A stretch of DNA of 64,000 bases from Actinacidiphila sp. DG2A-62. GTDB taxonomy: Bacteria; Actinomycetota; Actinomycetes; Streptomycetales; Streptomycetaceae. Below the pieces are notes generated by a model. That model was not told the origin of the DNA. It saw nothing but the letters and a program-made list of their open reading frames with translations, and searched no databases. Positions 25,026-50,927 of this stretch are shown here, piece by piece (position 1 is the stretch's first letter; the number at the start of each line of letters is the position of its first letter). Made by a program: the position numbers and the translations under genes. The stretch is taken from positions 3,725,001 to 3,789,000 of the forward strand of contig NZ_JAYMGI010000002.1 of NCBI RefSeq assembly GCF_035825295.1, written 5' to 3'.

Positions 25026-25840
25026 TCAGGTGCAGCGGCGAGCCAGGGCGACTAGGTCCGGCACCAGGTGTGGGTGGGCGCCGCGGCTGGCTGCCTGCAG
25101 CAGCTCGGTGGCCACGACGAGGAGGGCCTGTCGTCCGTCCGGGCTGTCGAGGATCTTGAACTCTTCGAAGATCCGCGCCGCTGTTTTCGGGGCGGTCAGG
25201 CTGTAGGCGTACAGCGTGGCGGCGTCGTAGCCGGCCGGCGCCATGCCGAAACCCTCCCAGTCCAGGATGGTGCCGTCTTGGGTCAGATTGGCCGGGTGGA
25301 AGTCGCCGTGCGCACACTGCCACGTGCGGATTTGCGGCGCCTCCTGGCTTGTCATCAGGGGGACCACGCGGTCGATCCACTGCTGCCGGACCGCGACGCG
25401 ATCGGTCACGGCCTGGTTGACGGTCCGCACGTCGGCGTGCAGCTGCTCGAGGAACTCCGGCGCGAGATCGAGTTCGGCGCTGAGTACCGGATCGGGCGAG
25501 AGCACGGGGGAACTGGTGTAGGCGGTGAGTTCCGCGCGGTATGCGATGCCGTCCGTCTGGTGGTCGTAGACGGCGTGCAGTTCGGGCTTGTGGACGGGGA
25601 AGAGAGGCCGGCCAGGGCGTTGCCCTCCCACAACTTTCCGTTGGCCCGTTCCGGAGGGGCGGACAGCAACCGTAGCCAGCACTCCCCGTGCGTGGGGTGC
25701 ACGGCGCGGCGGCCGACAGTACGGCCGTGCCAGCCCCAGGTCATCTGTCCTGTCGGGGCGACGCCAAGGGCGGATGCCGCCGCGGAGTGCGCGGCGATCA
25801 TCCGCCTGGTGTCTGTGTCATTCGACGGTGGCGAGTACAT
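25026..25840 (-). CDS. APH-fold phosphotransferase (one frameshift)
   Basis: 271 aa once one C is restored near 25615-25619. The catalytic loop 'CAHGDFHPANLTQDG' has HGDxxxxN, and the metal-binding 'TILDWEGFGMAPAGYD' follows. The start MYSPPSNDTD overlaps the aldo/keto reductase 3' end by 23 bp, so the two are coupled. The family phosphorylates antibiotics, small molecules or, in class V lanthipeptide pathways, peptide Ser/Thr. The context (peptide plus oxygenase plus reductase) makes a peptide or metabolite substrate more likely than resistance; that is inference. Confidence 0.75.
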
Positions 25841-26729
25841 CGAGCGTCTTTCGTAGGGCGGAAGCGGCGACCGGCTCATCGACGGCCGTCAGGGCTTCCG
25901 CCCAGTGTTTCGGATCTCCGGTCGACATCAGCACCTTGGAGAGTCCAGGGCAGTTCGCCACCGCCGTGATGCACGCCGCCGGGATGCTCGCGCCCGGCTG
26001 GATCAACTCGGCGAGTTCCGGGGTAGCGAGGGCCTTGAGCTCGCCGCCGTGCAGCGGCGCCGAAGCGTGGACTTCCCACCCCTGCCAGCCGGCCTGGACG
26101 ATCGGGCCGGTCCCCCGCAGCGCCATGTCGAAGGCTTCGGCCATGACGAGGCTGACGGGGAGCTGGATGGCGCGAAGATGGTGGGTGTCGCTACCTGCGG
26201 CTTCCCGGGCGAGCCGATCGAGGACGGACACGCTGAACGCGCCCTCGCTGAAACCTGTCCAGGTGGCGATGCCGTACGCCGCGATGTGCCCGGCGTCCGC
26301 CTCCTCCTCCAGGACGGTGAAGGCGTCCCGCAGTTCTGCCCAGAGCTCGCCGGGGCGGGCGGTGCGCTCCGGGTTGTGGAGGAACAGCATGTCGAGGCAG
26401 TCACGGCCGAGGGCAGCGCGGTTGTCCTCCGTCTGCCACCGGACGTAGGCGGCCCCGATGCTGTGCCGGGCGATCGCGTCTCGGCTGTCGATGACGCCGG
26501 CAGCTTCGGCGACGCGTGCGCGGGCCGAGTCCATGTAGCCCACCTTCGTTGCTACTCGGAGAGCGGGGTACTCCGCCAGCGCGGGGGCGAGCAGGCGGTG
26601 CGCGCGGCCATAGCAGTAGTTCGGGGCCGTGTCGATCCAGGCCGCCGGGGAGCTGGCGGCGCGCCGTGCGGCGTCCGTCAGGTGCTCCCCGGCGATCCGG
26701 TAGGTGCCCAGTGCCAGCGTGGGTTTCAC
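25818..26729 (-). CDS. Aldo/keto reductase family protein
   Basis: 303 aa from GTG 26729, overlapping the oxygenase stop (GTGA). 'LALGTYRIAGEHLTDAARRA' opens the barrel. 'WIDTAPNYCYGRAHRLLAPA' carries the active-site Asp and Tyr (DTAPNYCYG), 'RVATKVGYMD' the Lys, and 'DMLFLHNPERTAR' the His, so the D-Y-K-H tetrad is present. NADPH-dependent carbonyl reduction is expected. Substrate unknown; acts within the four-gene cassette. Confidence 0.85.
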   Translation of the reverse strand: MKPTLALGTYRIAGEHLTDAARRAASSPAAWIDTAPNYCYGRAHRLLAPALAEYPALRVATKVGYMDSARARVAEAAGVIDSRDAIARHSIGAAYVRWQTEDNRAALGRDCLDMLFLHNPERTARPGELWAELRDAFTVLEEEADAGHIAAYGIATWTGFSEGAFSVSVLDRLAREAAGSDTHHLRAIQLPVSLVMAEAFDMALRGTGPIVQAGWQGWEVHASAPLHGGELKALATPELAELIQPGASIPAACITAVANCPGLSKVLMSTGDPKHWAEALTAVDEPVAASALRKTLDVLATVE

Positions 26730-27919
26730 GCGGCCTCCGTCCGCACGGAGGCGGCTTTCGCCGCCAGAAGCTCCGTGACGACGGCGGCGGCCTGGCCGAC
26801 GCTCACCTGCGAGGCGTGCGCGAGGTCGCCGAGACTCCACCAGCCTCCGCTCACCAGGCATTCCAGCATCGGCGCGGCGGCGGGGGCGAGATCCACCTCA
26901 CTGCCGGCGGCGGCCAGGCGCACCAGATCGTGTCCTTCGTCGGTGACCGTCCGCAGCCTGGCACGCCCGCTGGTCAGCCGGACCTTCAGGTCCGGGTCGG
27001 CAGGCACGCCGTTGACGTACGGCAGGGACGGACGCAGCCGGCCGATGTCCTCCGCGTCGCGGGTCGCGGTGTACCAGTCCAGCGTGGCGGGGTCTTCGAG
27101 GACCCCGGCCACCTCGCCGGCCAGGCTGGCGAGGTACGCGCGCTTCTCGTCCGGTCCGGCGTGGATCGGGAGGTCGGAGCGGACGACGTCGCTGACGCGC
27201 AGCATCTCGGACATGAACCCGAGCAGGGCCGCTCCGGTGTGCGGGGTGATGCCGCACGTCAGGTGCAGGGAGTGCGTGCCCTGGTCCGCGGTGACGGCGT
27301 GCCACCAGCCGCGCGGCAGGTAAAGGATGTCGCCTGGGTCGAGGACGAGTTCGGCGACCGGGGTGTCCGGCGGGTCTTCCGGGGTTGCGACGTCCCGGAA
27401 CATCGGCTTGTGCCGGGTCGGGCCGAAGATCTTCCAGCGCTTCGAGCCCTCGATCTGGACCACGATCACGTCGTGGTCGTCCCAGTGCGTGCCGAATCCC
27501 TCGGTTGCGGTCCAGGAGGCGTAGGCGTTGACCTGGACGCTGGTGCGGAGCCAGCCTTCCAGCTCGGCGGCCAGGTCGCCGATCGGCTCGTGCAGCTCGT
27601 CGATCGCGTCGACCACGAGGGACGCACCTTCGGCGAGGCGCTGGTGCAGGTCCTCGGGGTGGACGCGCTGCCACACGGTGTGGCGCCGGGTCGTGACCGG
27701 CGCGGCGTATCGGTAGGGCGGGATCGGGTCGCCGTTCTGGTGCAGCCGCAGCCGAGGCGACTCCAGGCGGGCGGTGCCGATCACGTCGTTGAGGGTGTCG
27801 AAGGACACCAAGGCCCCCGGGTCCTTCACGGCGCCGGGGACGTGCAGGTAATCGCGGTTGTACGTCTGGGCCAGGAACGTGTCCTGGCCCAGACGCTCCG
27901 CGATGATCACTCGGGTCAT
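26726..27919 (-). CDS. JmjC/cupin-fold Fe(II)/2-oxoglutarate oxygenase
   Basis: 397 aa. The metal triad is visible: HWD in 'FGTHWDDHDVIVVQIEGSKR' and the distal His in 'LYLPRGWWHAVT'. 'KRWKIFGPTRH' supplies the conserved basic stretch. A C-terminal winged-helix-like region (~330-397) resembles ribosomal oxygenases (ROX/YcfD group), whose members hydroxylate ribosomal proteins. Here the neighbours are a small peptide (22 bp upstream) and two tailoring-type enzymes, so a peptide substrate is plausible. Confidence 0.8.
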   Translation of the reverse strand: MTRVIIAERLGQDTFLAQTYNRDYLHVPGAVKDPGALVSFDTLNDVIGTARLESPRLRLHQNGDPIPPYRYAAPVTTRRHTVWQRVHPEDLHQRLAEGASLVVDAIDELHEPIGDLAAELEGWLRTSVQVNAYASWTATEGFGTHWDDHDVIVVQIEGSKRWKIFGPTRHKPMFRDVATPEDPPDTPVAELVLDPGDILYLPRGWWHAVTADQGTHSLHLTCGITPHTGAALLGFMSEMLRVSDVVRSDLPIHAGPDEKRAYLASLAGEVAGVLEDPATLDWYTATRDAEDIGRLRPSLPYVNGVPADPDLKVRLTSGRARLRTVTDEGHDLVRLAAAGSEVDLAPAAAPMLECLVSGGWWSLGDLAHASQVSVGQAAAVVTELLAAKAASVRTEAA

Positions 27920-27940
27920 CGCAGCTTCACCAGGTTCCGA

Positions 27941-28084
27941 CTAGTCGTTGCCGTCGCCCTTGCCGGTGGACCCGCCGTCGGACGGGGTCGCGCCGCGCGT
28001 GCGGGCCGCGGCGATCTGCCGCCGGGCGACGACCAGGCCGGAGTCCGGCCCGTTGGCGGAAGCGTTCTCGATCCGTTCGGTCAT
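27941..28084 (-). CDS. 47-aa peptide, candidate precursor of a modified peptide
   Basis: Starts MTERIENASANGPDSGLVVA, continues 'RRQIAAARTRGATPSDGGST' and ends GKGDGND. A predicted amphipathic helix (leader-like) is followed by a flexible Gly/Ser/Thr/Asp tail (core-like). AGGAGG sits six bases before the ATG, the best site in the area, implying high expression. It is the first gene of the operon with the JmjC oxygenase, reductase and kinase. No known precursor family recognised; a regulatory microprotein is the alternative. Confidence 0.6.
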   Translation of the reverse strand: MTERIENASANGPDSGLVVARRQIAAARTRGATPSDGGSTGKGDGND

Positions 28085-28176
28085 TGCTGCCTCCTGCGAG
28101 GTGATCCGAAGCACGGCCACGGCTGCGGCCGTAGGGCAATCTCAGCGCCTGCGCCGTTGCGCCGGAAGACGCGAAC

Positions 28177-28249
28177 GGTTGCTCTCGGTTGCTCTCGGTT
28201 GCTCTCGGTTGCGGTGGGTTGCCGTGGTTGCTCCGGTTGCTCCGGTTGC
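28177..28249. promoter_or_regulatory. Eight phased GGTTGC repeats
   Basis: GGTTGC occurs at 28177, 28187, 28197, 28207, 28217, 28226, 28235 and 28244: four steps of exactly 10 bp, then three of 9 bp. The first copies are perfect 10-mers (CGGTTGCTCT). The array lies in the divergent region between the peptide operon and the XRE/TPR regulator, 90-165 bp from the peptide start, on one face of the helix. Confidence 0.75.
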
Positions 28250-28316
28250 CTTTCCCGTTCCGATCACGCCCCCGGGTCGACAACACTGTGATTCCAGCCG
28301 TTCGGAGGTTCTACGG

Positions 28317-29672
28317 ATGCACAACACCCACCCGCTCACGGTGCTGCTGGCGCAACGCGGTTGGACGTCGGAGTCCTATCTGCGGAGAGTGCGGGCGGAG
28401 TACATCCGGAGGGGGTACGGGCAGAACTTCGCCACCCGCAAGGAGAAGGTCAGCCGGTGGACCGCAGATGCGCGCCCGCAAGTGCCCACCCGGCCGACCC
28501 AGCTCGCGATGGCCGCCGTCCTTGGGATCTCGCCACGCGAGGTCCAGGCGCAGGGGTGGCCGAACTGGCTGCTGGCCGGACTTCAACAGAACGACGGTTT
28601 ATGGGAGTTGCCGTGGACAGCTGCGGGAACCATTCAGGCACTGGACCATGACGGAGGACCCGTGGACCGACGCCACATGCTGATCGCCTCGACCGGAACG
28701 GTCGCTGCGGTCATCGCCCAGTGGGCCACGGCTCACCCCTCGGATGCGCAGTCGGCCGGGCAGCGCATCGACGCGTCGTCGGCCGCCCGGATTGACGACA
28801 GGCTCACCGCGCTCCGGCATCTTGATGACGACCTGGGTGCCGACGTTGTCTACGACGCGGCCGTGGCCGAGATTCGTCTCGCCCGCCGTCTGCTCCGCGA
28901 TTTCACGTACAGCGAGGACGTCGGCCGACGCCTGTTCGCCAGCGCAGCGGAGGCAGCGCGCCTCGCCGGGTGGTGCGCCTACGACAGCGGGAGGCTGCAG
29001 CAGGCCGAGCGCCACTACCACCAGTCGCTCCGGGCCGCTGGCAGCGCCGGAGACCGGACGGCGGGTGCGGTGGCCGCCGCGTTCTGGTCGATCGTCCGAT
29101 ACTCCGGGACCAGCCAGGACTCCAGCAGCGCCTTGGACATGCTCGACAACGCCCTGTCGTACCGGGGCTCGATCACCTCGCCGCGGGTCGTGACGCTGCT
29201 CTACATCAGGCAGGCCCGCGCGCATTCGGTCGCGGGGAATTCGGCGGCTGCGTACCGGGCGGTCGACGCCGCGCTGTCCGCGTACGACCGCGGCGGTCCT
29301 CCTTCCGAGGACCTGGAGCGGATGTACTGGGTCAACGCCGGGGAGATCTTCCAGGCCGCTGGGTCTGCCGCACTGACGGTGGGTGATCCGCGGCGAGCGC
29401 TGGACTACTTCGATGCGGCGCTGACCCACGCCGACCCGTACGACGCCGGGTTGGAGAGGCGGGGCACCGCAATCTACGAAGCACGCCGAGCGGCTGCCTA
29501 CCTTGCGCTGGGCGACGTCGATGGCGCGGTGGAGACTGCCGAGCGGGCTGTAGAGCTGATGGGCGGGGTCTCTTCGGCTCGGGCCAGCGGCACGCTGGCC
29601 GGTCTGCGGAGGGACTTGGCCAGCCATCGGCGAACGCCGGTCGTCGCGGAATTTCTCGCTTCCACCGGCTGA
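28317..29672 (+). CDS. XRE-type regulator with TPR-like C-terminal domain
   Basis: 451 aa from ATG 28317 (GGAGG eight bases upstream). The N-terminal ~75 residues form an HTH-type domain ('TRPTQLAMAAVLGISPREVQ'). A linker follows, then helical repeats from ~residue 150 to the end ('AGWCAYDSGRLQQAERHYHQ', 'GDPRRALDYFDAAL', 'ARRAAAYLALGDVDGAVETA') typical of TPR. Actinomycete proteins of this layout control specialised-metabolite genes. It diverges from the peptide operon and probably binds the GGTTGC array. Confidence 0.75.
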   Translation: MHNTHPLTVLLAQRGWTSESYLRRVRAEYIRRGYGQNFATRKEKVSRWTADARPQVPTRPTQLAMAAVLGISPREVQAQGWPNWLLAGLQQNDGLWELPWTAAGTIQALDHDGGPVDRRHMLIASTGTVAAVIAQWATAHPSDAQSAGQRIDASSAARIDDRLTALRHLDDDLGADVVYDAAVAEIRLARRLLRDFTYSEDVGRRLFASAAEAARLAGWCAYDSGRLQQAERHYHQSLRAAGSAGDRTAGAVAAAFWSIVRYSGTSQDSSSALDMLDNALSYRGSITSPRVVTLLYIRQARAHSVAGNSAAAYRAVDAALSAYDRGGPPSEDLERMYWVNAGEIFQAAGSAALTVGDPRRALDYFDAALTHADPYDAGLERRGTAIYEARRAAAYLALGDVDGAVETAERAVELMGGVSSARASGTLAGLRRDLASHRRTPVVAEFLASTG

Positions 29673-48943: not shown

Positions 48944-50598
48944 GTGGTCCAGGCTCGACGCGCCGGAAGCGTCTCCCGCCGCTGCGAGTGCCGCGGCCCC
49001 GACGGCAAACGCCTCAGCCAGAACTGCCCCGACCTCGCTAAACGCACCCACGGGACCTACCAAGTCCGCCAGGAACTACCCCCGGATGCCGAGGGCCACC
49101 GCCGCACCTTCCGCCGTACCGGCTACACCACCGTCACCAAGGCGAACAGCGACCTGGCCAACGTCCAGGCCGTCCTCGACCTGGCGCAAGAAGACGAGGC
49201 CGACCTGCAGCGCGTCGGCGACTTCCTCGCCGCCATCTCCCGCGACCGCAGCAAGGCGATCCCCGCGCCGGCCGACGTCGCCAAGAAGCTCGGCCTGGGC
49301 GTGCCGCTCGACGGCAAGATGACCGTGGCCCAGTGGCTCGACCGCTGGCTCGGCCGCAAGAAGACCCGCGCCACGACCAACCACGGCTACCGCTCCCACG
49401 TCGAGTACCACCTCAAGCCGCGCATCGGTCACTACCGCCTGGACCGCCTCAGCGTCGGCCACCTCGTCGCGATGTTCGACGCCATCGCCGACGACTCGGA
49501 CGTGATCCGCGCCGAGAACCGCGCGCGCCGCGAGCAGGAAGCACGGTGCCGGTGGACCCTGCCCGGCCGCCCGCCGGCCAGCCAGGCCGAGCGCCTGAAG
49601 GCCGAGCGGGAGAAGCTGGCCGCGATGCCGCCCTACCGCAAGACCAATGGCCACGCGACCCGCCAGGCGATCCGCCGCACCCTGCGCACCGCGCTCAACG
49701 CCGCCATCTCCGAGCAACTGATCACCTTCAACGCCGCAGCCCACGTCGAACTCACCGCCTCCCCCGCCCCAAGGGCCTGCTGTGGACGGACGAGCGCGTC
49801 GCACGCTGGCGCAAGACCGGCGAGATCCCCGGCAGCGTCATGGTGTGGACCCCCGCCCAGCTCGGCAGGTTCCTCGACGCCGCCGAGTCGCACAGGCTGT
49901 ACGTCGGCTTCCACCTCATCTCCCACCACGGCCTGCGCCGCGGCGAGGGCTGCGGACAAGGCTGGGACGACACCCACCTCAACGCCAAGCCCCCGCGGTT
50001 GGACGTGCTCCGTGAGCTGGTGGTCGACGGATACACGCCGATCGAGACCGCGCCCAAGACCGACAGCTCGATGGCCGCCGTCGTCATCGACCGCGGCACC
50101 GTGGCAGTCCTGCGCGAGCACAAGAAGCGCCAGAACGCGGAGCGCAAGGCGTGGAACGCCGAGGCCGCCGAGCGCCGCGCCCGCGGAGAGGAAGCCCACG
50201 ACTGGATCGAGACGGGCAAGATCCTCACCGCCCAAGACGGAAGCTGGCTGCACCCCGACGTGCTCAGCCGGGAATTCGTGAAGCTCTACGAACAGGCCGA
50301 CCTGCCGCCGATCAACCTCCGCGACCTGCGCCATGTCGCAGCGGCATTGGTAAAGGCTGGCGGTGGCGATATTCACGATGCGAAGGCGAAACTCAGGCAC
50401 GCCAATATCGCATTGACCTCGAATACGTATATGTCGCTGTTCGAGGAATACGAGGAGGATCTGGCGGAGCGGTCGGCGGCGGCCGTACCTCGGGCGGGGA
50501 AGAAGACGCCCGGCCCCGAGGACACGCCCGAGGAGGCGGAGGAAGCCGTACAGGACGGCGAGGACGGCGCCGAGGGCGCCGAGGAGAGCGCAGCGTGA
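48944..50598 (+). CDS. int: Tyrosine recombinase / phage integrase (one frameshift)
   Basis: 551 aa when one C is restored around 49760-49770; everything downstream then stays in frame. Arm- and core-binding regions: 'DGKMTVAQWLDRWLGRKKTR', 'YRSHVEYHLKPRIGHYRLDR'. Catalytic domain: Arg I in 'ISHHGLRRGEGCGQGWDDTH', box II as 'INLRDLRHVAAALVKAGG', then 'LRHANIALTSNTYMSLFEEY' with the nucleophile Tyr. Box II reads RDLR, not HxxR. AAGGA six bases before GTG. It abuts the tRNA-Lys, its likely attachment site. Confidence 0.85.
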
Positions 50599-50779: not shown

Positions 50780-50813
50780 AGCTGATAGAATGTGACAACG
50801 CAAGAAAGTACGC

Positions 50814-50886
50814 GGGCCGTTAGCTCAATTGGCAGAGCAGTGGACTTTTAATCCATTGGTTGTGGGTTCGAGTCCCACAGGGCCTA
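50814..50886 (+). tRNA. tRNA-Lys (anticodon TTT), probable attachment site
   Basis: 73 nt. D-arm AGCTCAATTGGCAGAGCA, anticodon loop CTTTTAA, T-loop TTCGAGT with five-pair stem. The acceptor stem has one G-G mismatch (G6) and a G-U end pair: the 3' strand is AGGGCCT where ACGGCCC would pair fully. That fits a hybrid gene made by integration. No encoded CCA. Confidence 0.85.
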
Positions 50887-50892
50887 CCTACT

Positions 50893-50927
50893 GGAGCCCT
50901 GGTCAGGGCACATCTGACCAGGGCTCC
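50893..50927. terminator. 14-bp perfect hairpin after tRNA-Lys
   Basis: GGAGCCCTGGTCAG pairs with CTGACCAGGGCTCC over seven bases. A 12-bp piece of it (CTGACCAGGGCT) also occurs at 50749-50760, on the other side of the tRNA. Confidence 0.7.

Follow-up and report, generated by a model that had tools for sequence, protein, structure and literature searches.

In biphenomycin biosynthesis a JmjC hydroxylase acts on the precursor of a ribosomally synthesized and post-translationally modified peptide (RiPP; PMC12707348, PMC12257519), and in cacaoidin biosynthesis an APH kinase phosphorylates the precursor (PMC9486802). Bregman et al. 2025 (PMC12710340) further describe fish and algal PF08007 JmjC proteins with legitimate RiPP recognition element (RRE)-like folds, and place the closest bacterial homologues of these proteins in RiPP-like genomic contexts. 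Here we analyze a cassette at positions 25026-29672 of a 64,000-nucleotide stretch of the Actinacidiphila sp. DG2A-62 genome (contig NZ_JAYMGI010000002.1, positions 3,725,001 to 3,789,000; hereafter the window), in which the gene for a 47-aa precursor-like peptide is followed by genes for a JmjC oxygenase, an aldo/keto reductase (AKR) and an APH-fold kinase. This cassette looks like an undescribed modified-peptide pathway. No description of the precursor or of a JmjC/AKR/APH cassette was found in the open-licence literature, which is weak evidence of absence, and the decRiPPter main text makes no mention of JmjC, cupin or aldo/keto.

The biphenomycin-type RiPPs, with their JmjC/cupin-like ornithine hydroxylases (BipG, BpmG, PbsQ), are alike in that a JmjC-type 2-oxoglutarate (2OG) oxygenase takes part in a multi-enzyme precursor pathway in actinomycetes and other organisms. 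However, their clusters encode an MNIO, a B12-radical SAM enzyme, an arginase and a TldD-type protease, none of which recur here, and their cores are aromatic/Arg, whereas the core in the window is Ser/Asp/Gly/Asn-rich. The PF08007 JmjC-RRE fusions of Bregman et al. share the RiPP-like contexts, but no precursor, AKR/APH cassette or product appears in that paper's text (PMC12710340). The ribosomal oxygenases NO66, MINA53 and YcfD share the fold of the whole JmjC protein, including the C-terminal winged helix, at roughly 16-21% identity; these stand alone, whereas the JmjC genes here are linked to a dedicated peptide, an AKR and an APH. The pyrroloquinoline quinone (PQQ) and mycofactocin pathways use radical SAM enzymes. 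They resemble the present cassette in having a short precursor with a fixed core, which suggests one product, and, as predicted for the JmjC protein, an RRE-type fold, PqqD being a structural neighbor; the precursor and enzymes here are nevertheless unrelated to theirs.

The peptide gene, an open reading frame (ORF) at 27941-28084 on the minus strand, has an ATG start behind a GGAGG ribosome-binding site; the preliminary description had pointed out the 47-aa peptide and its ideal ribosome-binding site. Its product, MTERIENASANGPDSGLVVARRQIAAARTRGATPSDGGSTGKGDGND, comprises a variable N-terminus followed by a conserved leader, LVVARRQIAAARTR, and a conserved tail, SDGGSTGKGDGND. No model in Pfam or NCBIfam matches it, and the annotation of three plasmid copies lists it as a 'hypothetical protein'. 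When genome contigs were scanned with the window JmjC protein, 80 loci were recovered, with one more from IMG/VR. Among the 72 related loci (JmjC identity of at least 38% in the best tblastn segment), 66 have the complete cassette with its gene order preserved, and three of the remaining six are at contig ends. The hosts include Streptomyces, Kitasatospora, Actinacidiphila, Actinomadura, Actinocorallia, Nocardiopsis and their allies. A profile built from 20 peptides was then run on 395 Streptomycetaceae genomes, in which JmjC genes were searched for separately. The peptide was detected in 74 of these genomes (about one-fifth), and 83 of the 87 matches are directly upstream of a JmjC gene of the same family as that in the window (family A); conversely, the peptide precedes 83 of the 89 family-A JmjC genes. 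Four matches lack this linkage and are among those with the weakest scores.

Nine columns of the peptide are invariant across 59 distinct homologues (the leader Leu, R-x-R, S-D, G, D and N-D), while the first 10-25 residues are free to vary. The leader is hydrophobic and follows the pattern LVVAxxxIxAxRxR, and the tail SD(GG)xTGxxDxND is near-invariant, ending mostly in ND in Streptomyces and extended by 1-4 residues in Actinomadura and Nocardiopsis. At such divergences and with this GC bias dN/dS is uninformative for the peptide, so that the analysis relied on linkage and on conservation between genera. The peptide is retained in different genera, and 83 of its 87 profile matches are linked to JmjC; comparison at the sequence level hence indicates that its ORF is a conserved gene and not a chance one. 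The cassette thus has what RiPP loci have in general: a short putative precursor, encoded in linkage with its predicted modifying enzymes. A conserved peptide upstream of homologous triads is what the preliminary description had proposed to look for, and its proposal of a cassette with a real precursor gene is borne out by the 66 complete copies.

The JmjC gene (26726-27919, minus strand) begins 21 nt after the peptide stop codon and encodes a ribosomal-oxygenase-like 2OG/Fe(II) oxygenase (JmjC_2, PF08007; E 2e-29), with the HxD...H iron triad, H145/D147/H207, invariant in 47 homologues. Its predicted structure (mean pLDDT 92.7) matches NO66, MINA53 and YcfD over the full length (VIA Z ~20-25). 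The C-terminal winged-helix domain, encoded at approximately 26729-27004 on the same strand, is predicted to be RRE-like. In a Foldseek search this domain matches the same domain of ribosomal oxygenases first and then many RREs (McbB, ThcOx, PqqD, TbtB, lasso B1, TruD and TbiB1), the latter with weak E-values of 0.01 to 1. A VIA comparison returned a range of winged helices, all at moderate Z; PqqD (Z 7.3) is one of them, as are TigE, PbtF and MccB. The fold and topology therefore match those of an RRE, yet the same fold is common to the ribosomal oxygenases NO66 and MINA53, such that the domain, as modeled, supports leader binding without proving it. Downstream and overlapping the JmjC gene by 4 nt, the AKR gene (25818-26729, minus strand; PF00248) encodes a protein with the D-Y-K-H tetrad, D33/Y38/K62/H118, invariant in 27 homologues; its nearest solved relatives are IolS-type AKRs. 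Both enzymes had been correctly recognized from their motifs in the preliminary description.

The APH gene (25026-25840, minus strand) starts, by homology, inside the end of the AKR gene and completes the transcription order of peptide (28084-27941), JmjC (27919-26726), AKR (26729-25818) and APH (ending at 25026). Its product carries the HGDxxxxN and LDWEG motifs and matches PF01636, and in homologues the APH motif is invariant and the catalytic residues are conserved; an APH profile found no match among PDB sequences. The assignment as an APH-fold kinase was sound, but the 218-aa ORF taken for the gene (25026-25682) is only its C-terminal part: the N-lobe is in another frame (25406-25879), with the frame change near 25600-25625, whereas homologues continue N-terminally in one frame. 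In all 70 homologous loci where the APH gene could be measured, it is one uninterrupted ORF of approximately 272-297 aa. The APH motifs are therefore part of an intact two-lobed protein in the homologues and not in the window. The integrase of the same element (48944-50598, plus strand) is likewise in two frames, with an N-part ORF at 48944-50281 and a C-part ORF at 49333-50598. With two genes of the element broken in this way, the cause is either decay of the element or indels in the assembly; a programmed frameshift in APH is disfavored by the split integrase and by its absence from the homologues examined.

A second, diverged set of loci (cassette B) encodes JmjC proteins approximately 28-38% identical to that of the window. 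The peptides of cassette B have the same leader pattern (LVVAVExLxxVxxR) and mostly keep the SD pair, but have other tails, e.g., SDSDGSDG or SDSSTSGGGDGHGSSGGDGLNIPES. When the family-A profile was run against 7074 stop-to-stop ORFs from the cassette B loci, the sister peptides ranked first, and the fourteen best matches all immediately precede the JmjC gene. AKR- and APH-like genes are present in many of these loci too, the APH often on the opposite strand. As between sub-families of RiPP precursors, the leader is thus conserved (with the SD pair) and the core differs. The preliminary description had anticipated a conserved leader and a variable core: the upstream peptide is indeed conserved in homologous triads and the core does vary between the two families, but within family A the C-terminal tail is itself invariant and is the most conserved segment. 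In the JmjC tree cassette B forms one group and cassette A nearly one, the two being separated by relatives that lack the peptide; the window protein falls within A, and its neighbors there are Streptomyces copies. Relatives from one other actinomycete family (L122-L135), 34-42% identical, have no peptide, AKR or APH nearby and are stand-alone ribosomal-oxygenase-like proteins. The genome of DG2A-62 also contains a sister cassette (L149; G000:C2:3952500-3963500) with a JmjC approximately 28-31% identical, an AKR, an APH on the opposite strand and a 54-aa precursor ending in SDPPPDGGGDNPWPDGDSLNHPA.

We consider it probable that the window carries one copy of a new RiPP-like cassette that is widespread among actinomycetes, consisting of a precursor, a leader-binding JmjC that oxidizes its tail, and an AKR and an APH with that peptide as their substrate. 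This reading is carried by gene order, conservation, linkage, catalytic residues and predicted folds, from which we infer leader binding, modification sites, reaction order and product. The leader (LVVAxxxIxAxRxR) would dock on the JmjC, most likely via its C-terminal RRE-like domain, allowing the enzyme to oxidize one or more residues of the tail SD(GG)xTGxxDxND; the likeliest sites would be the invariant Ser-Asp pair, which the sister family shares, and the Asp-x-Asn-Asp at the end of the tail. The AKR would then act on a carbonyl and the APH on a Ser/Thr or a newly made hydroxyl of the same peptide. An attractive order would be oxidation, carbonyl reduction and then phosphorylation of the hydroxyl. 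The divergent regulator would control the operon. The conservation of the tail within the family resembles that of PQQ- or mycofactocin-type precursors more than that of a diversified antibiotic. The invariant tail, together with the absence of an exporter and a protease, suggests a single conserved product that probably stays inside the cell and resembles a cofactor or a signal. Whether this amounts to a new RiPP class, in which an RRE-bearing JmjC, an AKR and an APH make one product (a cofactor or signal) from an invariant tail, with spread by prophages and linear plasmids and a sister class sharing the leader, is in our estimate evenly balanced.

Several points weigh against this proposal. 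Modification of the precursor is a prediction from sequence; the RRE-like fold is common to housekeeping ribosomal oxygenases, and the modeled domain alone is no proof of leader binding; the kinase gene in the window is frameshifted, and the pathway here is probably incomplete unless this is an assembly error. In addition, no transporter, protease or lyase recurs among the cassette neighbors, with families judged from the most recurrent clusters. The preliminary description had likewise seen none.

Other roles for the peptide and the enzymes were weighed against the same evidence. The substrate of the enzymes might be a small molecule or a ribosomal protein, in which case the peptide would serve only as a translated leader or would partner the JmjC non-covalently. 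That the closest solved folds are ribosomal oxygenases, and that the close relatives L122-L135 have no peptide, AKR or APH nearby, would fit such a role, but different genera conserve the amino-acid sequence of the peptide and its division into leader and tail, and the sister family swaps the tail yet retains the leader, a pattern for which a translational leader or attenuator would have no need. We regard this explanation as unlikely. It is a little less likely again that the peptide is mainly a signal for the neighboring TPR regulator, in an RRNPP- or arbitrium-like circuit on mobile elements, with the enzymes merely tuning the signal. The TPR regulator is beside the cassette in the window, 42 of 75 JmjC loci have a regulator-like gene in the 2.5 kb upstream, the conserved segment is at the C-terminus of the peptide, and copies are found on prophages and plasmids; however, these regulators are of several unrelated kinds and none of their families is found in the other 33 loci, whereas the three enzymes are constant, and the listed peptides have no obvious secretion signal.

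A system of the class V lanthipeptide type, in which phosphorylation of Ser/Thr by the APH would prepare these residues for elimination and ring formation, has next to no probability. Class V lanthipeptides such as cacaoidin and lexapeptide also pair an APH-fold kinase (the APH-like LanK) with a precursor in actinomycetes, and APH-fold kinases do phosphorylate class V precursors (PMC9486802). However, a search of the whole genome with PF17914 found no match for a HopA1-type (LanY) lyase, none of the listed family-A peptides contains Cys, and neither such a lyase nor a decarboxylase was seen among the conserved neighbors. The class V assignment was ruled out on the lack of both the lyase and the core Cys. 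A defense system was also rejected, with no PADLOC match for the JmjC, AKR, APH or regulator.

Divergent from the operon, at 28317-29672 on the plus strand, the TPR regulator noted in the preliminary description is confirmed as a member of the NsdA family (NF053720; E 3e-82, 277.4 bits against a cut-off of 75) and is the probable regulator of the operon. Between the divergent genes is a tandem array without strand (28176-28249) of 7.7 copies of the 10-bp unit CGGTTGCTCT, which contains TTGC and is a possible operator. The array, which had been proposed to complete a self-contained locus, is real but private to the window copy; as homologues lack it, it was ruled out as a part of the conserved locus. 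In L003, L004, L005, L007, L012, L090 and L091, TTGC...GCAA palindromes lie between the peptide gene and the divergent regulator and are candidate operators. In ten loci (L046-L053, L071, L082, L019 and L044 being listed) a divergent gene upstream of JmjC resembles the RibD C-terminal reductase family, and six of the ten also have a second short gene, SLOG-like by eye; these are possible extra pathway genes.

The window also encodes portal-type proteins, a terminase, a DNA ligase, a recombinase and the integrase, and the cassette is indeed surrounded by phage genes, as the preliminary description held. It is no prophage specialty: cassettes are found on chromosomes, on linear Streptomyces plasmids and on a second viral contig, most being chromosomal or plasmid-borne, and prophage-specific cargo was therefore ruled out as a general rule. 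Intact copies include those of Streptomyces glaucescens pSglau1 (L092) and of an S. albidoflavus plasmid (L090). IMG/VR contains one true relative (L083), in which the cassette is beside genes that are terminase- and tail-like by eye, while in the phage collection JmjC matches were solely weak, half-length and in cyanophages. Next to the window integrase, a tRNA-Lys region (50812-50925) is duplicated upstream at G000:C2:3682145-3682258 (114 bp, 92% identical); the two copies are approximately 93.5 kb apart and may be the attachment sites at either end of a large element. In one genome the cassette is found near both ends of the single contig (G658:C1:21967 and G658:C1:8478909), presumably in terminal inverted repeats.

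If our proposal is correct, approximately one-fifth of the sampled Streptomycetaceae genomes would encode a compact RiPP system led by a ribosomal-oxygenase-like JmjC. Its presence on prophages and linear plasmids suggests that the trait can be transferred, and the C-terminal fold common to human NO66/MINA53 and RREs would bear on the kinship of peptide-recognition domains and protein hydroxylases.
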